Assembly: GCA_007136585.1 (NCBI GenBank)
Contig: SLGR01000192.1
Location: 1-11,470 of the forward strand
DNA length: 11,470 nt
Direction: 5' to 3'
Source: Candidatus Sumerlaeota bacterium
GTDB lineage: Bacteria; CG03; SLGR01
Below the pieces are notes generated by a model. It saw only the letters and a program-made list of their open reading frames with translations, was not told the DNA's origin and did not search any database. Position 1 is the stretch's first letter. The number at the start of each line of letters is the position of its first letter. The position numbers and the translations under genes were made by a program. Below, one piece after another: positions 1 to 10,013 of this stretch.

Positions 1-1796
1 ACCCCAGAAAAAGAAATCCTTCCAAACCTCCGGATTCCCGTAAACCCGGGAAACAGAGGGGAAAGAAACCGGGCGGGCGCCTGAAAACAAAAAACCCCAC
101 CCTTGATATAGATGATACTGTCAGGGTTTCTGTAGAAAAAGTAAATGAGCTTATGAACCTGGTTGGCGAGATGGTTTTAAGCTGGCAGAAGTTTCAGAAC
201 TACTCAACTGATTTAAGGGTTGCCATAAGCAGCATTACCTCCTGCCAGATACCGGAAATAACCCAGAGACAGGATAGACTTAAGAACCTGTCAAAGGATT
301 ATAAGGAAAACACAAAAGTTCTGGATACCACTCTGAACCAGCTTCAGGATATCGTGATGGGAATAAGAATGCTTCCCGTATCCACGGTTTTCGCTCTTCT
401 TCCCAGGGTCGTTCATGATGTGGCCCTTGAGTTTAATAAGAAAGTTGAAGTTGAGATAAAAGGAGAAGGGACCGAGATTGATAAAAGGATGATAGAGCAT
501 CTCAAAGATCCTCTTGTTCATATCATACGAAACGCCGTATACCACGGGATAGAGTCTCCTGAAGAGAGGAAGGAAAAAGGAAAACCCGAGACAGGAAAGA
601 TAATCCTCTCAGCTTATCAGCAGGGAGACCGGGTTTTTATTGAGGTTAAAGATGACGGGGGGGGGATAGACCCGGAAAAGATCAGAGAGGCTTCCGTAAA
701 AAAAGGGTTTTTTGAAAGAAGTGAGGCCGAGAACCTGAGCCGGGATGAACTTCTTCAGCTGATATTTAATACGGGTTTCTCCAGCAGGGAGGAGGCTGAC
801 AGTATCTCGGGGCGCGGAGTAGGCCTGGATGTTGTAAAGAAAATTATAGAGGAAAACCTTGTGGGGCAGGTTATGATTGATACTGAGCCTGGGAAGGGTA
901 CGACTTTTACCCTGATACTTCCTCTTACGCTTCTTATTAACTCGGGCCTTCTGGCCGAAGTGGGAGACCAGACCTTTGTTTTCCTTGTAAATGCCGTTGA
1001 GACAGTGGCTTATATTCTTCCGGACGAGATAAAGTCTATGGAGGGGGAACCTGCCGTAAAAATACGCGATTATACGGTTCCCATCCTGCCTCTTGACGAG
1101 GTCCTGGGAATAAGGAATAACGGTTCCGGGGTTCTTCAGCAGGAGGAGATTCCCGTTATAGTAGTAAATTACGCCGGCCAGAAACTTGCTTTTGCCGTAA
1201 GCCGTCTTCTGAGGCAGAAAGATATTGTAATAAAAACTCTTCATCAGCCGGTGGGTAAACTCAAGAATGTGGCCGGTGTTACCATACTGGAAAACGGGCT
1301 TCCTACTGTTATCCTCCATATACCCGATCTTATAGAAGCCGCCAGGAAGAGAACTTTCTCAGCTTCCCGGGTTTCTACCGTACGGGAAAAAAAGGAAGAG
1401 ACCGGTACAGAGAAAAAAAGGATAATGCTTGCCGAGGACTCAGCGACCACCCGGGATCTTGAAAAGAGCATACTGGAGTCTTCCGGATATCTGGTTGATG
1501 CCGAGTCTGACGGCGCGAAAGCCTATAAAAGACTTACAGGCAGTCCTGCTGATACTTACGACCTTGTCTTTACGGATGTGAATATGCCTAATATGGACGG
1601 GCACCAGCTATGCCGCAGGATAAGGCAGAATGAGCAAATCAGGCATCTGCCCATTGTAATAGTCTCCTCTCTTGACAGTGATAAGGATAAGAGGAAAGGG
1701 CTTGAAGCGGGAGCTGACGCATATATGACAAAGAGTGAGTTCAATCAGAAGGATATTGTGGGTATCATAGAAAGGTTGATAGGAACAGATGGCTAA
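1..1796 (+). CDS. cheA: CheA histidine kinase with C-terminal receiver domain (hybrid), 5' partial
   Basis: Chemotaxis kinase that autophosphorylates from ATP in receptor arrays and passes phosphate to CheY/CheB-type receivers. The reading frame is open from base 3, so the gene starts upstream; the phosphotransfer (P1) domain and its histidine are outside the window. Visible in order: a Lys/Pro-rich linker (3-105), the dimerisation helices starting at RVSVEKVNELMNLVGEM (123-173), the ATPase domain with N-box RNAVYHGIE (528-554), DDGGGID (654-674) and GRGVGLD (810-830), a CheW-like P5 domain (about 930-1350), and a receiver (1419-1793). The receiver keeps its acidic pair (AED), phospho-acceptor Asp at 1575-1577 (FTDVNMP), Ser in IVSSL and Lys in MTKSEF. 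The N-box has Tyr (540-542) where family members usually have Asp (RNAxDHGIE). The stop overlaps the cheB start by 8 bp, indicating translational coupling. Hybrid CheA proteins occur in Frz, Pil-Chp and other alternative chemosensory systems. Confidence 0.97.
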   Translation, partial: PRKRNPSKPPDSRKPGKQRGKKPGGRLKTKNPTLDIDDTVRVSVEKVNELMNLVGEMVLSWQKFQNYSTDLRVAISSITSCQIPEITQRQDRLKNLSKDYKENTKVLDTTLNQLQDIVMGIRMLPVSTVFALLPRVVHDVALEFNKKVEVEIKGEGTEIDKRMIEHLKDPLVHIIRNAVYHGIESPEERKEKGKPETGKIILSAYQQGDRVFIEVKDDGGGIDPEKIREASVKKGFFERSEAENLSRDELLQLIFNTGFSSREEADSISGRGVGLDVVKKIIEENLVGQVMIDTEPGKGTTFTLILPLTLLINSGLLAEVGDQTFVFLVNAVETVAYILPDEIKSMEGEPAVKIRDYTVPILPLDEVLGIRNNGSGVLQQEEIPVIVVNYAGQKLAFAVSRLLRQKDIVIKTLHQPVGKLKNVAGVTILENGLPTVILHIPDLIEAARKRTFSASRVSTVREKKEETGTEKKRIMLAEDSATTRDLEKSILESSGYLVDAESDGAKAYKRLTGSPADTYDLVFTDVNMPNMDGHQLCRRIRQNEQIRHLPIVIVSSLDSDKDKRKGLEAGADAYMTKSEFNQKDIVGIIERLIGTDG

Positions 1797-2844
1797 GATA
1801 AAGCTGCTTATAGTGGATGATTCGGCTACCGTAAGGACCCTTATAAAGAAACTTCTCAGTAAGGAGAGCTCGATTGAAGTCGTGGGCTCAGCTGAGAACG
1901 GTAAGGAAGCTATAAAGAAAATTACCGAACTTAGGCCCGATATAGTCACAATGGATATAGAGATGCCCTTTATGGACGGGTTTAACACTATAAAATACAT
2001 AATGAAAGAGGATCCCGTTCCTATCCTGGTCATAGCCCGGTCCGCGTTCAGCAAGGGGGAGGATTTTATTTTTAAGGCGATCGAACTGGGGGCCCTTGAG
2101 ATACTTGAAAAACCGGACCTGTCAGACTGGAGCAAACTTGATAATTTCAGGAAGATTCTTATACGTGAGATAAAAAAACTGGCAAAGTCAGGGAGCGCAC
2201 CGGTCTCCTTAGTTGAATCCGATTCTGAAGCTTCTGAAAAAAAACCTGTAGATGTAAAGTCAGAGCTGGATGAGAGCTGTAAGGCTTATGTCGGGGTAGC
2301 GGCTTCAACCGGGGCTCCGGGTATCCTTAAAAAAATTCTTGCTACTTTACCCGGGAATTTTCCTGGTTGTATTTTCGTGGTCCAGCATATATCCAGCGGG
2401 TTTACCAAGGATTTTATAAGGTGGCTTGACGCGGAATCTGAGCTTAGCGTAGTTGAGGCGCAGGCGGGTGAGCGGATAAGGGAGCATACTGTTTACGTGG
2501 CCCAGGAAGATAAGCATCTTACCGTAAATAAGCTTAAGCGGATAGAGCTTACGGAAGGGCCCAAGAATAACGGTTTCAGGCCTTCCGGGAATGTTCTTTT
2601 TGAATCCTTGGGCAGGGTTTTCGGGAAAAAAAGCATCGGGGTTATACTATCAGGTATGGGTCAGGACGGGGTAGACGGCCTTGGTGTTATAAAAAAATCC
2701 GGCGGAAAGGTAATAGCTCAGGATCCGGAACATTGTGTATTAAAAACAATGCCCAGCCGGGCAGTTAAAGCCGGGGTTGTGGATAAAATCGCTCATCCGG
2801 ATAAGATAGCAGCTGAAATAATAAAATTTGCCGGAGGTAAATAA
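1789..2844 (+). CDS. cheB: CheB protein-glutamate methylesterase / deamidase
   Basis: Removes methyl groups from receptor glutamates (and may deamidate Gln), activated by phosphorylation from CheA; cytoplasmic. 351 aa, usual CheB length. Receiver at about residues 4-125 with D10/D11, phospho-acceptor D56 (TMDIEMP) and K108 (EKPD). A linker rich in Ser, Glu and Lys covers about 131-165. The methylesterase domain (167-348) has a complete apparent triad: S173 in AASTGAP, H200 in VVQHIS, D293 in GMGQDG. Two departures from the family: the receiver Ser/Thr switch position is A83 (PILVIARSA against the usual VSSLT pattern), and the nucleophile motif reads STGAP rather than STGGP. RPSGN (264-268) replaces the more usual RPSVD. 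It starts inside the end of cheA, and its last codons contain the ribosome binding site of the next gene. Confidence 0.96.
   Translation: MAKIKLLIVDDSATVRTLIKKLLSKESSIEVVGSAENGKEAIKKITELRPDIVTMDIEMPFMDGFNTIKYIMKEDPVPILVIARSAFSKGEDFIFKAIELGALEILEKPDLSDWSKLDNFRKILIREIKKLAKSGSAPVSLVESDSEASEKKPVDVKSELDESCKAYVGVAASTGAPGILKKILATLPGNFPGCIFVVQHISSGFTKDFIRWLDAESELSVVEAQAGERIREHTVYVAQEDKHLTVNKLKRIELTEGPKNNGFRPSGNVLFESLGRVFGKKSIGVILSGMGQDGVDGLGVIKKSGGKVIAQDPEHCVLKTMPSRAVKAGVVDKIAHPDKIAAEIIKFAGGK
2833..2838 (+). promoter_or_regulatory. Ribosome binding site for receiver 1, inside the cheB 3' end
   Basis: GGAGGT lies 7 bases before the ATG at 2846 and overlaps the last cheB codons. It decides the start at 2846 over an upstream in-frame TTG at 2828, which lies before this site. 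Confidence 0.8.
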
Positions 2845-2845
2845 A

Positions 2846-3223
2846 ATGGCTCTTTTCGGAAAAAGCAAACCCGTGATACTGGTTGTTGATGATTCTCCCA
2901 CTGTGCTTGAGATGAATGCGAGTATCCTTAAAATACATTACAGGGTCGTAAAAGCTTCTTCCGGAAAGGAAGCCATAGAAAAGGCTATGAAGATCAAACC
3001 CGACCTGATCGTTCTTGATGCGATGATGCCGGAGCTTGACGGATGGGAGGTCTGCAAGATAATAAAGGAAAACTCCTCCACTCGGAAGACCAAGGTGATA
3101 ATGTGTACGGGGGCTTCCAAGGGCAAGGAAGTGGAGAAGGCTTTTTCAATGGGGGCCGACAGTTACATAATAAAACCGGTTGTTCCGAATAAACTGCTTG
3201 AGAAGATAGAGAGCCTGCTTTAG
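2846..3223 (+). CDS. Stand-alone CheY-like response regulator (receiver 1)
   Basis: Single receiver domain of 125 aa with no output domain; phosphorylated on Asp, probably by the CheA next door, and acting by binding a partner or as a phosphate sink. After a short tail (MALFGKSKP) the fold runs to the C-terminus with all key residues: D15/D16 (VVDDSP), acceptor D58 (VLDAMMPELDG), T88 (IMCTGAS) and K110 (YIIKPV). The start is chosen from a good Shine-Dalgarno at 2833-2838; only one base separates the cheB stop from this ATG, so the genes are co-transcribed. It shares the 16-base run GTTGATGATTCTCCCA with the third receiver gene near 7333, which encodes the same acidic-pair motif and suggests paralogy. 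Its target (flagellar motor, pilus motor or other) cannot be told from sequence. Confidence 0.94.
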   Translation: MALFGKSKPVILVVDDSPTVLEMNASILKIHYRVVKASSGKEAIEKAMKIKPDLIVLDAMMPELDGWEVCKIIKENSSTRKTKVIMCTGASKGKEVEKAFSMGADSYIIKPVVPNKLLEKIESLL

Positions 3224-3314: not shown

Positions 3315-3701
3315 ATGAGAAAACTGCTGATTGTTGACGATGATGAGTTTACGCGAACATTGCTTAAAACGATCTTTAAAGACAGTTTTGATATAACCGA
3401 AGCGGAGAACGGACGCGACCTTGTGGTAAGGGCGCAGGAGGTAAGGCCGGATCTTATAATAACCGATATAGTTATGCCGGTCTTAAGCGGGTACCGCGCC
3501 GTAGGCAGGCTTGCGAGGGAGCCTGTATTCAGAAAAACAGCGGTAATTTTCACTTCTAGCGCCGTAAGCGACCATGATCTGTATGAAATGTATAAACCCC
3601 CCCAGATGGTTACCGGTTTTATAAATAAACCGTTTTCCCGGTCGGAAATAACCGCCCTTGCTGAGGAGCTCCTGGAGAAGACCAGTGATACCTCCGGGTG
3701 A
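3315..3701 (+). CDS. Stand-alone CheY-like response regulator, divergent (receiver 2)
   Basis: Single receiver domain of 128 aa. Catalytic residues are kept: D8/D9 (IVDDDEF), acceptor D51 (ITDIVMP), T80 (IFTSS) and K105 (INKPF). The loop after the acceptor reads VLSG rather than the common xxDG, and the segment before the conserved Lys lacks the usual GAD motif, reading MYKPPQMVTGF instead, so the alpha4-beta5 face, which normally contacts targets, differs from receivers 1 and 3. It follows a 91-bp gap after receiver 1 with no convincing terminator. A purine-rich AAGGGG (3304-3309) serves as ribosome binding site. The stop lies 13 bases before the cheR start. Probably phosphorylated by CheA; the partner is unknown. 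Confidence 0.92.
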   Translation: MRKLLIVDDDEFTRTLLKTIFKDSFDITEAENGRDLVVRAQEVRPDLIITDIVMPVLSGYRAVGRLAREPVFRKTAVIFTSSAVSDHDLYEMYKPPQMVTGFINKPFSRSEITALAEELLEKTSDTSG

Positions 3702-3714
3702 AGATAAAGTTAAA

Positions 3715-5196
3715 ATGGGGCTTAGCGGCAGCGAGGTTAAGCTTTTCAGGGAATATATATATGACTCTGCCGGCCTGCAGCTTAATAAAGACGACAGGAT
3801 AGCAAAGGCTGTTGCTACGAGGATAACCGAACAGGGGTTCGTTAACCCCTATAATTACTTCAAGTACCTTAAATACCACCCTCAAGGGTCGGTTGAGCTC
3901 AGAAACCTTCTTACCCTGGTTACCATAAACGAGAGCTGTTTTTTCAGGAATGAACACCAGTACAAAGCCCTGCGGGAGATGGTGCTTCCGGATCTGCTTT
4001 GTAAAAAACTTCAGAGTTCTCCCCGGCCCAGTCTCTCGGTCTGGAGCGCCGGGTGTTCTTCGGGTGAAGAACCCTACTCCATAGCTGTAGAGATACTGGA
4101 AAAGGTTAATTTTTCCAGGCAGTTTGATATTGAGATACTGGGAACTGATGTGGATAAAGGGGTCCTGAAAGACGCCAAGAAGGCTTCCTATAATCTCTGG
4201 CGTCTCAGGAATGTAAGCCGTATTAGGCTTGAAAAATACTTTGACCGAGAGGGAAAAAAATATACTCTAAAACCTTCAGTCAGGCAGCTCTGCTCATTTG
4301 ATTATAATAACCTGATGGACGAGCATTATCCCCAGAGTTTTTTCGGGAAATGGGATATTATATTCTGCCGCAACGTATTTATTTATTTTAACAGGGAAAC
4401 CATTAAAAAAGTTCTTAAAAGGTTTGCTGAAATAATAAATGAGGGGGGGTATCTTTTCCTGGGGCATTCCGAGTCATTATACAGGATAACAGGTGAGTTT
4501 CAGCCTGTTCAGTACGGGAATGCTTTTATATACAAAAAAACAGCAGAAGGGGAAGAGGTCCTTCCGGTTCCGGAGCCTGTTGAGACGGTTCCGGGCAAAG
4601 AGAGTCAAGAAGTAAGAGTTATCAGCCCGGATGAAGAAGCGCGTGATGAACCTCTTGTTGAATTAGAGGAAAAAGAAAAGGAAGAAGAAGATAAGTTTGA
4701 GAAGGCCTATGAACTTTACATTAAGGAAAATTACGGCGAAGCCGGCGGGTTTATAGAAGAACACCTGGAAAAAACCCGGGATCTTGAGGGGCTGCTTCTT
4801 GCCGCAAAGATATTCACCGAGCAGAATAAGCTGGATAAAGCGCTTGAATATGCCTGCGAGGCTGTTGAAAAGGATTATCTGAACCCGTCCGGGTACTTTA
4901 TAGCAGGTATAATAAACCAGGGTAAGAACGATTTGGATGAGGCGGAAAAACACCTCAAGAAAGCGCTTTACCTGCAGAGTGATTTCGGGCTTGCCCATTT
5001 CAGGCTTGCCGAGATATATGAGAAGAAAGAACAATATGATAAGGCCCTGGTCGGTTACAGAAACACACTTAAGGTTTTTGAGGGGATGCTTGAAGAGGAA
5101 CCTCTTGAGCTTGGAGGCGGGTTTACCGTTAAAGCCCTGAGTGAGCTTGCCAGAAGCCGGATCAGAAAGCTCAAGGATACGGCCGGGAAGAATTAA
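3715..5196 (+). CDS. cheR: CheR receptor methyltransferase with C-terminal TPR module
   Basis: Transfers methyl groups from S-adenosylmethionine to receptor glutamates, the counter-reaction to CheB. 493 aa, well above the roughly 270-290 aa of a minimal CheR. N-terminal helical CheR domain at about 3-80, ending in TINESCFFR (70-78, the family TxNExxFFR signature). The catalytic SAM-binding domain covers 85-275 with SAGCSSGEEPYS (111-122), GTDVDKGVL (143-151), IIFCRNVFIYF (215-225) and LGHSESL (249-255). A Glu-rich linker (about 277-326) leads to about three TPR-like repeats (327-455). TPR-tailed CheR proteins are known in alternative chemosensory systems, where the repeats bind partners. The start is ATG 3715: an upstream in-frame TTG at 3658 would overlap receiver 2 heavily and add non-homologous residues. 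Ribosome binding is only fair (GGGTGA about 13 bases upstream), suggesting coupling to receiver 2. Confidence 0.96.
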   Translation: MGLSGSEVKLFREYIYDSAGLQLNKDDRIAKAVATRITEQGFVNPYNYFKYLKYHPQGSVELRNLLTLVTINESCFFRNEHQYKALREMVLPDLLCKKLQSSPRPSLSVWSAGCSSGEEPYSIAVEILEKVNFSRQFDIEILGTDVDKGVLKDAKKASYNLWRLRNVSRIRLEKYFDREGKKYTLKPSVRQLCSFDYNNLMDEHYPQSFFGKWDIIFCRNVFIYFNRETIKKVLKRFAEIINEGGYLFLGHSESLYRITGEFQPVQYGNAFIYKKTAEGEEVLPVPEPVETVPGKESQEVRVISPDEEARDEPLVELEEKEKEEEDKFEKAYELYIKENYGEAGGFIEEHLEKTRDLEGLLLAAKIFTEQNKLDKALEYACEAVEKDYLNPSGYFIAGIINQGKNDLDEAEKHLKKALYLQSDFGLAHFRLAEIYEKKEQYDKALVGYRNTLKVFEGMLEEEPLELGGGFTVKALSELARSRIRKLKDTAGKN

Positions 5197-5290: not shown

Positions 5291-6133
5291 ATGCGAATAA
5301 TAGCGGTAATTAACCAGAAAGGCGGGGTGGGTAAGACAGTCACAGCGGTTAATATGGGGGCCTGCCTGGCTCTCCATAACAGGCGGGTTCTTATTGTAGA
5401 TTTTGATCCGCAGGCTAACTCCTCGCTTCTTCTTGGCAGAAATACAAGCCTTGACGAGCCTTCCGTATACGATGTGATGGCGGGTAATATAAACCCGGAG
5501 GAGATCATTGAGGAAACGTCTACAAAGAATCTGTTCCTGATGCCGTCCAATCTCAATCTGGCTGAGGCCGAGATAGACATAGTGGAAAGACCCGGAAGAG
5601 AGATTATTCTTGCCGAACAACTTATTTCCTCAATTGACAGGGGTTCTGTTATAGCCGGGTTTGATTACATAATAATAGACTGTTCGCCTTCGCTCAGCAT
5701 ACTGACAGTAAATGCCCTGATGGCCGCCAGGGAGATTTTTATCCCTATGCAGATGACTTATTTCGCGCTTAAAGGGGCAGATCATCTTATAAATATTGTT
5801 GAACTGGTCAATGAAGAGCTTGAGCACCCGGTTAGCATAACCGGTGTTATACCTACATTCTTTGAAAAGGATCCCGGGGATTACGAAAAGGTTCTTGAAG
5901 AGGTGAAGGAACTTTTCGGCGGGGCTGTTTTTGAGACGGTCATTCATCGGAGCACCGCATATGATAAAGCTGCAGCGGCGCAGAAAACTGTCTTTGAAAT
6001 TATGCCTGAATCCGACGCCAGCTGGGATTACAGGAACCTTACCCAGGAAGTTATCAAAATGGAACAGGAGGAAGAAGGAGACAGGGGCGAGAAAAAAGGG
6101 TTTTTAAGCAGTCTGTTTAAGAAAACGTACTGA
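5291..6133 (+). CDS. ParA-family ATPase (Soj/ParC/PpfA-like), likely chemosensory array positioning
   Basis: Deviant-Walker P-loop ATPase of 280 aa. Deviant Walker A KGGVGKT at 10-16 with signature lysine K10 and catalytic K15; DFDPQAN (37-43) is the switch I / A' motif; Walker B/switch II IIIDCSPSL (127-135). ParA proteins cycle between ATP dimers on a surface (nucleoid or pole) and ADP monomers, driven by a partner that stimulates hydrolysis. No ParB or parS-like gene is adjacent; the neighbours are cheR and a double CheW, so the likely cargo is the chemoreceptor array, as for ParC in Vibrio and PpfA in Rhodobacter. The C-terminus (259-280) is charged and ends in a basic GFLSSLFKKTY tail not typical of chromosomal Soj, possibly a targeting or docking peptide. 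AGAGGGA (5274-5280) lies 10 bases before the ATG. A chromosome-partition role is less likely but not excluded. Confidence 0.93.
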   Translation: MRIIAVINQKGGVGKTVTAVNMGACLALHNRRVLIVDFDPQANSSLLLGRNTSLDEPSVYDVMAGNINPEEIIEETSTKNLFLMPSNLNLAEAEIDIVERPGREIILAEQLISSIDRGSVIAGFDYIIIDCSPSLSILTVNALMAAREIFIPMQMTYFALKGADHLINIVELVNEELEHPVSITGVIPTFFEKDPGDYEKVLEEVKELFGGAVFETVIHRSTAYDKAAAAQKTVFEIMPESDASWDYRNLTQEVIKMEQEEEGDRGEKKGFLSSLFKKTY

Positions 6134-6135
6134 GT

Positions 6136-7308
6136 ATGAAAAGAGAAGATTTTAACAGGAAAATTCTGAAAAAAGGTCTGTTTAAGAATACGAGAAAAAC
6201 CTCCGGAGAAGAGAAAACCCGTAAAGAAACACCTGCGGGTCCCTCAGCTATATCGGCGGAGAAAAGGGCCCCGGAAGGTATGAGGCAGCTTCCCGAGACT
6301 CTTCAGGTAGTTAAGTTCAGGCTTAACGAGTATGAGTTCGGGCTTGATATAAGCCAGATTGAAAAAGTCATATGGATGGTAGAGATAACAAAGGTTCCCA
6401 ATGCCCCATCTATACTTGAGGGTATTATTGATCTGCAGGGAAGGATAATTCCGGTTATTGACCTTCATAAGGTACTGGGACTGGCATGGGGAGATTATAG
6501 AAAGGATACCCAGATTATAATCGCTACAACAGGAGATAAGGAGCTGGGCATTATAATAGATAAGATACAGCATGTCATTAACATAAACAGCAGGGATATC
6601 CTTATGCCTGATAAGAACGTCCCCCATAAAGAGATTCTCCTTGGTGTGGCCGAGACTTCCGGAGGGCTGATGCCCATACTGGATCTTGAGAAGGTGATTC
6701 CTCTTAACGAGGAGGAGCTTGAAAACCTGGTCTTTGATGAGAAGCAGAAAGCAAAGGGTATGCCTGCCGTTGAGGCTGAGAATGAGGAGTTAAGGAACCT
6801 TTTCCATAAGCGCGCACTGGATCTGGCGGAGAAAAGAGAGGTTAAGGAGGAGGATACTGAAAATTTCCTTGTTTTTGCCATTGAGAATGAATGGTATGCC
6901 CTGGATCTTACCAATATAAAGGAGGAACTGGTGCCGTTTTCAATAGTTCCGCTTCCTTCTGTTTCTTCCAGTGTTCTGGGGGTCATCAACCTCAGGGGGG
7001 ATATTCTGGCCGTGGTTGATCTTAAGAGCCTCTTTGAGCTCTCCCGGGGGGAGGAGAAAAGCCCTAAATCCAGGTTCATAGTAATTGAGAAGGGAGACGC
7101 CAAGTTCTGCCTGGTAGTTGACAAGGTTGAGGAGATATACAACCTTCCTCTTAACTCTATAGAACCGCCTCTCTCAACTATAGAAGAGGTTAAAATGGGG
7201 TACTTAAAGGGCGAGATAAGCTATATGGATAAGCTGATAGGGCTGATAGACCTTGATAATATAATAAAAGCCGTCAGCGGCTCCGGAGAGGTTAGGGGCT
7301 TAAAATGA
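6136..7308 (+). CDS. cheW: CheW-CheW tandem scaffold protein with basic N-terminal tail
   Basis: Adaptor that couples receptors to CheA in the array; here two CheW domains are fused (390 aa; a single CheW is about 150-170). Residues 1-54 are a low-complexity tail; the first 30 contain 12 Lys/Arg against 4 acidic residues. CheW domain 1 spans about 55-190 with EGIIDLQGRIIPVIDL (95-110); domain 2 about 242-380 with LGVINLRGDILAVVDL (281-296). Between them a helix LRNLFHKRALDLAEK (219-233) matches the helix often seen in front of CheW domains. Domain 1 has Gln where the conserved Arg of the NxRG motif would be, and domain 2 has Ala in place of the following Pro. The ATG is 2 bases after the parA stop with no clear Shine-Dalgarno, so translation is probably coupled to parA; the 3' end overlaps receiver 3 by ATGA. 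It could be the ParA partner (ParP-like) as well as the receptor coupler. Confidence 0.94.
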   Translation: MKREDFNRKILKKGLFKNTRKTSGEEKTRKETPAGPSAISAEKRAPEGMRQLPETLQVVKFRLNEYEFGLDISQIEKVIWMVEITKVPNAPSILEGIIDLQGRIIPVIDLHKVLGLAWGDYRKDTQIIIATTGDKELGIIIDKIQHVININSRDILMPDKNVPHKEILLGVAETSGGLMPILDLEKVIPLNEEELENLVFDEKQKAKGMPAVEAENEELRNLFHKRALDLAEKREVKEEDTENFLVFAIENEWYALDLTNIKEELVPFSIVPLPSVSSSVLGVINLRGDILAVVDLKSLFELSRGEEKSPKSRFIVIEKGDAKFCLVVDKVEEIYNLPLNSIEPPLSTIEEVKMGYLKGEISYMDKLIGLIDLDNIIKAVSGSGEVRGLK

Positions 7309-7706
7309 GCGGTACTTTGAAAAAGATAATGATAGTTGATGATTCTCCCAGTATAATCAAGTTCCTGGAAATGGTTCTGGGAAAGGAGCGGTATGCGGTA
7401 ATCAGCTACGGTAACGGGCTTGACGCCGTGGATTCGGTTGAAGAAGAAAGCCCTGACCTTATAGTTATGGATATGAATATGCCAAAACTCGGCGGAATAG
7501 ACGCCGCCAGGACCATAAAACAGAATATAAAGACATCCCACATTCCAATAATAATCATATCGGGACACGACCAGGAGGAAGAGGTCAGGAAGGCCCGTGA
7601 GGCCGGCGCTGATGATTTCCTGGTCAAACCGTATGCTCCCGAACAGCTGCTGGAGATAATTAAGGAAAAAATTGAGAGAGCGGATCGAAACTTACGGGAT
7701 ACTTGA
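7305..7706 (+). CDS. Stand-alone CheY-like response regulator (receiver 3)
   Basis: Single receiver domain of 133 aa. Key residues: D12/D13 (IVDDSP), acceptor D56 (VMDMNMP), S86 (IIISGHD) and K108 (FLVKPYAP). The loop after the acceptor is KLGG instead of the common MDG. The C-terminal ten residues (about 124-133) extend past the fold and are charged. It starts within the stop of the double cheW (ATGA), so it is translationally coupled to it. Being in the parA-cheW unit it may be the output of that module, but no target is visible. This is the last che gene in the window; no terminator follows directly. Confidence 0.94.
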   Translation: MSGTLKKIMIVDDSPSIIKFLEMVLGKERYAVISYGNGLDAVDSVEEESPDLIVMDMNMPKLGGIDAARTIKQNIKTSHIPIIIISGHDQEEEVRKAREAGADDFLVKPYAPEQLLEIIKEKIERADRNLRDT

Positions 7707-7995: not shown

Positions 7996-8001
7996 AAGGA
8001 G
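7996..8001 (+). promoter_or_regulatory. Ribosome binding site fixing the TonB receptor start
   Basis: AAGGAG lies 8 bases before the ATG at 8010. It overlaps an in-frame GTG at 8001, which therefore cannot be the start it serves; this supports 8010. Confidence 0.8.
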
Positions 8002-8009
8002 TGTTGTGT

Positions 8010-10013
8010 ATGTTTAAAAAGGTAATTTTACTTGCGCTTGTGCTGCCGGCTTTTATGCTATCGGGCGCATACGGTCTGGAGGAGCTTCTTTTTGAAGATT
8101 TTGAAGTAGTCTTCTCTGCCGCAAGGATGGAGCAGCCTATCGCGGAGTCTCCCGCTGCCATTACGGTCATAACCGAAGAGCAGATAAAGCAGTCGGGAGC
8201 AATGAGTATTCCCGAAGTGCTCCGCCAGGTGGTTGGGTTGAGCGTAATACAGGTGACGGTGGGCGAGTATCAGATCTCATCCAGAGGGTTTGACAAGATT
8301 CCAGGTAACAAAATGGCTTATCTTGTTGACGGTGTTCCTATGATCACTTATGCGGCTTATGACGCTCCTGTTTGGGATCTTCTTCCTATAACTGTAGAGG
8401 ATATTTCAAGGATAGAGGTTATACGCGGCCCGGGGTCCTCTCTCTATGGGAGTAATGCTATGCTCGGAGTTATAAACGTCATTACAAAAGACCCGGCCGA
8501 TACAACCGGCGGTTCTGTTGCTGCTTCAGCAGGAGAACTCGGTACATTAAGAGCTACGGCAAGGTATGGCGGAGTAACAGATAATTATAGCTACAGAGTT
8601 GGAGCCAATTATCTGGCTGCGGAAGAGTTTGGCCCCATGCCGATTTTAGGTGTGCTGACCGACCAGGAAATCGACACAGCTTCCGCAATGATGAAGTTGG
8701 ATTACTACACCGGACCTGAATCAACACTGAGCCTTTTTACCGGGTACTCCCAGGGCGATGGCGCAGTTGCTTACGAGACTACCGGTTACATGAATACTTC
8801 GGATTTCATGAAGCTGGATTTCGGGATTGGGTATAATATGCCCGGCACTGATTTTAACCTCTATGTTAAGTACCTTGATATTGGCGCAGTGGAGCTTTTG
8901 GGAGCGGATATTCCATTTGAGGAACTTTATGCTCAGGCTGAGGTCAGGCGCACCGAGCGCATAGGTAATCATACCCTGATAGGTGGCATTGAATATTCTC
9001 ACAATGCGGTGGAGACCGGTCTTTTTGACCGGGTTCCGGGAGAAAGCGACCAGGAGTCACTGGATGCTGTAGCGTTTTACCTGCAGGATGATTTCAGGGT
9101 TCTTGACCAGCTTCTCCTGAACGCTTCTATGAGGTATGATTATAACGAGATAGCCGAGGGGCATTTTACAACCAGGGCTTCCGCAATATACCTTCCGAAT
9201 GATATGCACTCACTGCGGTTCACATACGGGACATCATACAGGAACCCCAACTTCATAGAGTACTTCTACGAAGCGAATATGCCTCATACCGAGGCCACTC
9301 TCCTTATGCTGCCTCCGCCGCCGGGTGAGACGCACTGGTATTACAGCGTTGACGGAAGAGAAGAGAATGACCCCGAGGTTGCGGAGTCCTACGAGCTCGG
9401 ATACCGCGGGTCCCTTTCCGAAAACCTGGAACTTGGAGCAAATGTATTCTATATGAAGGTGAAGGACTTCACCGCCCTTCTTCCGACAGAATACTGGGAT
9501 ACCTCGTACCTTGTTCCTTTTATAGGCGCGGCTCCGGATGTTCCGAAAGTCATAAATCACATAAATACAGGTGAGGCGGAACAGTACGGCGGAGAGATTG
9601 AGCTCAGGTACCGGCTGACGGACTGGCTTGGAGGGTTTGTGAACTATACCTATCTTGAGCCTGAAGAAACCAAGCCTTTCATTGCCGAGAGGCTCTTGTG
9701 CACCGCGAGAAACCGGGCCAACGCCGGGGTCAATTTCTCTTTTGATAACGGATTGAGCGCAAACCTGCTTGTTCATTACTCAGATATGACCAGGTGGCCT
9801 CTTGCCGGGGCTGAAGAGTGGGGAGCCGGAGGAAAAGCAGACGCCTATACCATAGTTAATATGCGTATCGGGTATGAGCTTCCGGTAGGCGACAACCTGC
9901 TTGAACTCTCGGTACACGCCTTCAACCTGCTTGATGAAGAGCACTCGCAGTATCCTATAGAAAGCGCTCCGCTTACCAGGAAGGTTACAGGGACGGTGGC
10001 ATACAGGTTCTAG
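8010..10013 (+). CDS. TonB-dependent outer-membrane receptor, substrate unknown
   Basis: Outer-membrane beta-barrel that imports a scarce ligand (siderophore, cobalamin, metal or sugar) with energy from TonB-ExbBD. 667 aa. Signal peptide MFKKVILLALVLPAFMLSGAYG (residues 1 to about 22, shown up to the likely cleavage region), then a TonB-box-like VVFSAAR and a plug domain with SPAAITVITEEQI, LVDGVP, RIEVIRGPGSSLYGSNAMLG and GVINVITK motifs. The barrel contains a typical TonB-receptor segment LRFTYGTSYRNPNF and ends in VAYRF, the terminal Phe expected for barrel assembly. No transporter, TonB or ligand-synthesis gene lies beside it, so the substrate cannot be inferred. It is not obviously linked to the che genes. 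The start is ATG 8010, set by AAGGAG at 7996-8001. A strong terminator follows 24 bases after the stop, so it is probably monocistronic or the last gene of a transcript. Confidence 0.93.
   Translation: MFKKVILLALVLPAFMLSGAYGLEELLFEDFEVVFSAARMEQPIAESPAAITVITEEQIKQSGAMSIPEVLRQVVGLSVIQVTVGEYQISSRGFDKIPGNKMAYLVDGVPMITYAAYDAPVWDLLPITVEDISRIEVIRGPGSSLYGSNAMLGVINVITKDPADTTGGSVAASAGELGTLRATARYGGVTDNYSYRVGANYLAAEEFGPMPILGVLTDQEIDTASAMMKLDYYTGPESTLSLFTGYSQGDGAVAYETTGYMNTSDFMKLDFGIGYNMPGTDFNLYVKYLDIGAVELLGADIPFEELYAQAEVRRTERIGNHTLIGGIEYSHNAVETGLFDRVPGESDQESLDAVAFYLQDDFRVLDQLLLNASMRYDYNEIAEGHFTTRASAIYLPNDMHSLRFTYGTSYRNPNFIEYFYEANMPHTEATLLMLPPPPGETHWYYSVDGREENDPEVAESYELGYRGSLSENLELGANVFYMKVKDFTALLPTEYWDTSYLVPFIGAAPDVPKVINHINTGEAEQYGGEIELRYRLTDWLGGFVNYTYLEPEETKPFIAERLLCTARNRANAGVNFSFDNGLSANLLVHYSDMTRWPLAGAEEWGAGGKADAYTIVNMRIGYELPVGDNLLELSVHAFNLLDEEHSQYPIESAPLTRKVTGTVAYRF

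Follow-up and report, generated by a model that had tools for sequence, protein, structure and literature searches.

The window, an 11,470-nucleotide stretch of DNA that makes up one entire contig (C100) of a metagenome-assembled genome (1.88 Mb in 257 contigs, 88% complete), carries a chemotaxis operon in the order cheA (3' part), cheB, two cheY-like genes, a cheR encoding TPRs, parA, a double cheW, and cheY (table 1). Open reading frames and Pfam matches bear out an earlier note on this DNA, which had placed parA and cheW at the coordinates in the table with only 2 bp between them; both genes are on the forward strand. Promoter-like sites upstream of parA were found at no more than background level. 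The end of another contig, C91, encodes a periplasmic binding protein and two MCPs, followed by the 5' end of cheA.

Table 1. Features of the che operon in the window
Feature	Position	Strand	Basis
cheA, 3' part, with C-terminal receiver domain; N-terminal part on contig C91	3..1796	+	
cheB	1789..2844	+	Pfam
cheY-like response regulator; true start probably slightly downstream	2828..3223	+	
cheY-like response regulator	3315..3701	+	
cheR with C-terminal TPRs; true start probably near 3715	3658..5196	+	
che-associated ParA-family ATPase, 280 aa	5291..6133	+	Pfam AAA_31 4.6e-53; nearest solved structure ParA 8ray, 2.3e-41
D194, at DNA-binding R189 of B. subtilis Soj; G in ortholog	5870..5872	+	47-protein alignment
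A223, at Soj R218 = M. xanthus ParA R238; I in ortholog	5957..5959	+	47-protein alignment and alignment to M. xanthus ParA
Candidate MinD-like membrane-targeting sequence KKGFLSSLFKKTY	6092..6130	+	E. coli MinD tail match; MinD HMMs; kept in ortholog
Double-domain CheW, 390 aa	6136..7308	+	Pfam CheW 5.2e-57, two stretches; own-genome search
Conserved basic tip, CheW residues 6-21 FNRKILKKGLFKNTRK, candidate ParA-binding/activating peptide	6151..6198	+	Conserved in G001; ParB-like L-x-[KR]-G-L
CheW domain 1: DLQG replaces NLRG; groove V59, I72, I75, V78 all hydrophobic	6304..6699	+	
CheW domain 2: NLRG kept; groove L245, L258, I261; E264 at V33 position	6865..7272	+	
cheY-like response regulator; 4-bp overlap with cheW end	7305..7706	+	

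A search of 290 genomes identified one clear ortholog locus (G001:C79), which comes from the same family; its match to the public record PWEK01000003.1 (Elusimicrobia bacterium) places the window in Elusimicrobiota. Its gene order, binding protein, MCP, soluble MCP, cheA, cheB, cheY, cheY, cheR, parA, and cheW, matches that of the window operon, its parA and cheW are separated by 3 bp, and the two loci share 65% identity in ParA and 60% in CheW. Residues 1-152 of the G001 CheA match C91 and residues 137-729 match the window; given that the halves of CheA are split between them in this way, C91 and the window contig are most likely genomic neighbors, a conclusion drawn from synteny and not from overlap. 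A scan of named genomes with the single CheW gave 20 pattern matches, none of them a relative, and the scan with the two-row alignment returned the G001 record alone. What we infer below is drawn from sequence and effectively from two orthologs, both in metagenome-assembled genomes of one family. Genes for TonB-dependent receptors adjoin the che operon at both loci, downstream in the window (8001-10013) and upstream in G001 (L034:195-2387), and an ABC-type binding protein precedes the MCPs; this neighborhood suggests that the array may sense a substrate imported through the receptors.

The window ParA has a deviant Walker A motif (KGGVGKT) and a ParA/Soj-like core. We placed it in an alignment and tree of 47 ParA-family proteins, a set that includes 15 Elusimicrobiota Soj proteins and one FlhG and is without Vibrio ParC. 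A starred branch puts the window ParA outside the Soj clade, on which ground we rejected its origin as a recent duplicate of the Soj of the phylum; the window and G001 genomes both keep a normal Soj elsewhere. According to a passage in PMC3778016 citing Hester & Lutkenhaus 2007, R189 and R218 of B. subtilis Soj mediate non-specific DNA binding. The Elusimicrobiota Soj proteins have basic residues at both sites (15 of 15, one with lysine at the second) and no MinD-like tail, and, the FlhG row excepted, the two che-ParAs of the window and G001 are the only ones among the 47 in which both sites are non-basic. The combination of this loss with a MinD-like tail is likewise confined to these two proteins.

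MinD binds the membrane through a C-terminal amphipathic helix (PMC9178275), and the C-terminus of the window ParA, EKKGFLSSLFKKTY, resembles the membrane-targeting tail of E. coli MinD, EKKGFLKRLFGG. Both che-ParAs end with KKGFLSSLFKKT plus one residue and E. coli MinD ends with EEEKKGFLKRLFGG; the stretch EKKGFLSSLF of the window tail stands against EKKGFLKRLF in E. coli MinD, and an ordinary BLASTP alignment extends into the tail. NCBIfam MinD models match the window ParA through residues 275-276, the bacterial MinD model ends at residue 194 on the Soj of the same genome, and the score of the window ParA against TIGR01968 (MinD), 62.7 bits, is far below the 212.9 cut-off. The tail is maintained in the ortholog through synonymous codon change. 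We are cautious about the MinD-like match, strong as it is in sequence, given that tails this short can easily look alike by accident; in helical moment the window tail is indistinguishable from its shuffles, as is the E. coli MinD tail. The MinD-like C-terminus and the loss of both DNA-binding arginines were not part of the earlier note.

Based on the loss of both arginines and the MinD-like C-terminus, a nucleoid-based mechanism appears unlikely for the window ParA. Positioning on the nucleoid as in PpfA/TlpT or ParABS would require other residues to bind DNA, the CheW tip to activate ParA as ParB does, and the C-terminal helix to have some other purpose. The ParA/Soj-like, rather than MinD-like, core and the resemblance of the tip to ParB (see below) are in keeping with this explanation, as is the precedent of the chromosome-associated PpfA, whose partner TlpT is thought to act in a ParB-like manner through its N-terminus (PMC3964821); however, neither ortholog has a basic residue at the position of either arginine and the R238E substitution by itself abolishes DNA binding by M. 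xanthus ParA (PMC12462528), so we hold the explanation to be unlikely. The pocket that receives the ParB peptide is retained: the M. xanthus residues V116/L150/L152/L155/L187/L192 (PMC12462528) correspond to I95/L135/I137/V140/L172/L177 in the window ParA, hydrophobic at six of six positions. As these positions are well conserved across ParA proteins, they speak for retention and not for a new function.

The double CheW begins with a tail whose first 30 residues contain 12 K/R, as the earlier note had counted, and 4 D/E. This tail is unusually basic given that the most basic first-30 stretches elsewhere among 33 CheW-type ORFs, one of them the ortholog of the window CheW, reach 9 K/R. Conservation is concentrated in the tip: the pattern FNxxILKKGLFKNTRK recurs nearly unchanged in PWEK01000003.1, with residues 10-21 (ILKKGLFKNTRK) identical, and the rest of the tail diverges, conservation being poor after residue 21 until the fold starts near residue 52. 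The two orthologs agree at 15 of 20 tip residues, at eight of which the codons differ synonymously, from which we conclude that the match is held by selection and not by recency. In M. xanthus ParB, residues L11, R13, L15, L18, and I19 matter for the binding or stimulation of ParA (PMC12462528). The CheW tip has L11, K13, G14, and L15, with N18 and T19 in place of L18 and I19, and thus contains half of the motif; the N-terminus of the ParB encoded by the same genome is MKKVLGRGLDSLI. When the first 22 residues are shuffled, about 0.2% of the shuffled sequences contain L-x-[KR]-G-L in its strict form; none of the 32 other CheW-type ORFs examined has even a looser form within its first 25 residues. 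A 17-nucleotide direct repeat (94%) at window positions 6111-6127 and 6176-6192 encodes a peptide common to the ParA tail (SLFKKT) and the CheW tip (GLFKNT), a likeness that also occurs in G001 as peptide and not as a DNA repeat.

Given these features, the CheW tip probably couples the sensor array to ParA. The earlier proposal that the basic tail activates ParA gains from the conserved tip, the half motif, and the retained pocket, and has to be narrowed to about residues 6-21 of the 54 considered, with N18 and T19 counting against it; the conservation itself is seen in one homologous pair. In an alternative explanation, the tip binds DNA or membrane non-specifically and in this way places the array, with no action on ParA, which would have another regulator. 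FrzCD binds the nucleoid through a basic N-terminal tail (PMC5716589), and the LFK[K/N]T shared by the CheW tip and the ParA tail might mean that both bind the same surface. FrzCD tails, however, are conserved in charge and not in sequence (PMC5716589), in contrast to the 12 consecutive identical residues found here, and the basic stretch behind these residues in the window CheW is not conserved; there is accordingly little likelihood, in our judgment, that the tip serves only in this way.

The two CheW domains depart from the canonical sequence at different places (table 1; receptor-groove residues, including V33 of T. maritima CheW, are from PMC5706961), and they may therefore have divided roles in the array. 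The glutamine of DLQG in domain 1 and the groove residue E264 in domain 2 are both retained in G001. CheW-domain matches in the genome consist of the two domains of the double CheW and that of CheA, such that the double CheW is the only CheW protein found, with a second copy possible in the missing part of this 88%-complete genome. AlphaFold models of ParA and the double CheW built on two-row alignments were unusable (mean pLDDT of 52.7 and 30.2, respectively), and disorder, helices, and folds are therefore argued here from sequence.

We tentatively propose that a MinD-style, membrane-based ParA positions the chemosensory array through its own CheW. In this scheme parA and the double cheW would form a positioning module dedicated to one chemosensory array. 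ParA would dimerize on ATP and the dimer would bind the inner membrane, and not the nucleoid, through the MinD-like C-terminal helix; the double CheW would sit in the MCP-CheA array as the coupling protein with its basic tip (residues 6-21) held out, where contact with ParA is predicted to stimulate the ATPase. The cycle would place, spread, or segregate arrays along the envelope, possibly close to type IV pili. The membrane segment of MCP1 suits a membrane track; the second MCP looks soluble, which suggests that the array might be cytoplasmic and counts against the proposal, as does the DNA co-stimulus that activation of ParA by ParB normally requires (PMC12462528). The small number of orthologs (two), the missing half of the ParB motif, and the existence of other parA-cheW pairs without these traits (G042 and G174, below) also weigh against it. 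We are more doubtful of the further proposal that ParA switched its track from nucleoid to membrane while keeping ParB-style activation from a core CheW, yielding a two-gene system that would bridge the ParA and MinD mechanisms. The earlier suggestion that the double CheW is both array scaffold and ParA activator finds partial support: the place of the pair in a che operon, the lack of an adjacent parB, and the presence of a parAB pair on a different contig are favorable.

FlhA was not found in the six genomes searched and several T2SSE-family ATPases of PilB and PilT size (T4P-type) are present, which makes twitching a more likely output than swimming. We rejected a FliG_C match as a flagellar sign, since it lies in an odd 656-aa TPR protein and FlhA occurs in zero of the six genomes. 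This protein, with an apparent signal peptide, the middle and C-terminal domains of FliG, and TPRs, is encoded at L086:5504-7474 (G000:C145) and L087:6146-8086 (G001:C124), adjoining a UPF0164/TPR gene, in genomes without FlhA.

The literature that we searched contains no description of this exact layout, as the earlier note had supposed, although a parA beside a gene for a CheW-domain protein is known in principle from ParC/ParP. In Vibrio and polarly flagellated gammaproteobacteria, ParC/ParP likewise combines a ParA-type ATPase with a CheW-domain protein in the che operon, and the N-terminus of the array protein contacts the ATPase (PMC5706961); ParP, however, is present in addition to a separate CheW, carries a single CheA-P5-like AIF domain preceded by a proline-rich linker, and binds a CheA-LID, whereas in the window a two-domain CheW, the only one found, is the partner of an ATPase with a MinD-like tail. 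PpfA/TlpT of Rhodobacter sphaeroides is similar in that a ParA homolog adjoins an array protein with an N-terminus thought to be a ParB-like stimulator (PMC3964821), and differs in that PpfA is chromosome-associated and its partner is a cytoplasmic receptor, unlike the CheW partner of a ParA without DNA-binding arginines. The window ParA shares the C-terminal EKKGFLxxLF with E. coli MinD, and a membrane-release cycle driven by a small activator, as in MinD/MinE, is conceivable; in contrast to MinD/MinE, the ATPase core is ParA-like, the operon contains no minC or minE, and an array would be the cargo. In Haloferax volcanii, chemosensory arrays are placed by the MinD-family ATPase MinD4 (PMC11588486), which, however, is archaeal, also acts on archaella, and reportedly oscillates along the cell axis. 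ParABS (Soj) has in common with the window the ATPase core, the deviant Walker A, the ParB-peptide pocket, and a partner tip with L-x-K-G-L, and differs in the absence of an adjacent parB, the loss of both DNA-binding arginines, and the placement of the window ParA outside the Soj clade. The earlier note had also considered that parA might usually accompany parB/parS; in the one homologous pair parB is not adjacent, and a separate parA and parB-like gene lie on another contig (G000:C155; ParB N-terminus MKKVLGRGLDSLIPE). The best reading of these comparisons is that the pair would work like ParC/ParP and PpfA/TlpT and be MinD-like in its track, although, by the features compared, it lacks a defining one of each system.

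A diverged ParC/ParP system, with polar anchoring through a landmark protein and the double CheW as the equivalent of ParP, would follow the same principle, in which a CheW-like protein integrates into the array and binds ParA through an N-terminal region, and parC and parP are located in a che operon (PMC5706961). We nevertheless consider it improbable, given that a separate cheW together with a parP is absent: the neighbor of parA in the window is a two-domain CheW, and we found no ParP-type gene beside parA in addition to a CheW. Nor does the window ParA group with the che-ParA of G174, which has a ParP-like neighbor, with the caveat that long branches make this placement unsure.

MCPs occur in three of the 16 Elusimicrobiota genomes, and che-type ParA only in the two that have this che operon; in the third (G003), the CheW is of the single-domain type and the cluster lacks parA. 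Other parA-cheW pairs are found in G042, with a triple CheW, and in G174, with the order cheW, parA, and a ParP-like gene. Their ParAs do not join the window ParA in the tree, in which their branches are long and poorly placed. In the 47-protein alignment they are basic at both DNA sites and have no MinD-like tail, and the putative track switch therefore appears special to the family of the window ParA and its G001 ortholog. In other phyla, ParA is not encoded near the tandem CheWs (23-33% identical), the triple CheW of G042 excepted, and we rejected the double CheW alone as a marker of the system for this reason. That ParA and CheW are chance neighbors, with ParA riding in the operon and having an unrelated cellular role, is very improbable: orphan ParAs are common (PMC9178275) and other tandem CheWs lack a nearby parA, but the pair, its order, its near-abutment, and its tails recur in G001 at 60-65% protein identity (15 of 20 tail residues identical), and within the 16 genomes such a ParA accompanies only this operon.

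Several other ParA contexts were observed. Orphan ParAs at L089:1501-2639 and L092:1142-2262, from two different families, have a short partner starting with MKKTGLG[KR]DPLxWIQPT, a ParB-like tip. A fusion of ParA and a receiver domain (L093:1492-2742) adjoins a cheY-like gene and is possibly a phospho-controlled ParA. An orphan ParA-like ATPase (L091:1489-3577) lies immediately upstream of an ftsZ-family gene.

The nucleoid is the typical track of ParA proteins and the membrane that of MinD proteins (PMC13246001), and the window ParA looks like a ParA-type core with a changed track. Given that the array cargo and the CheW partner are already beside it, this change could be studied directly; the bench predictions are clear and only two small proteins are needed. 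If our proposal of a membrane-based ParA acting through its own CheW is true, a phylum of mostly uncultured bacteria would provide a case in which the core coupling protein itself takes on positioning, without a separate adaptor of the ParP kind.
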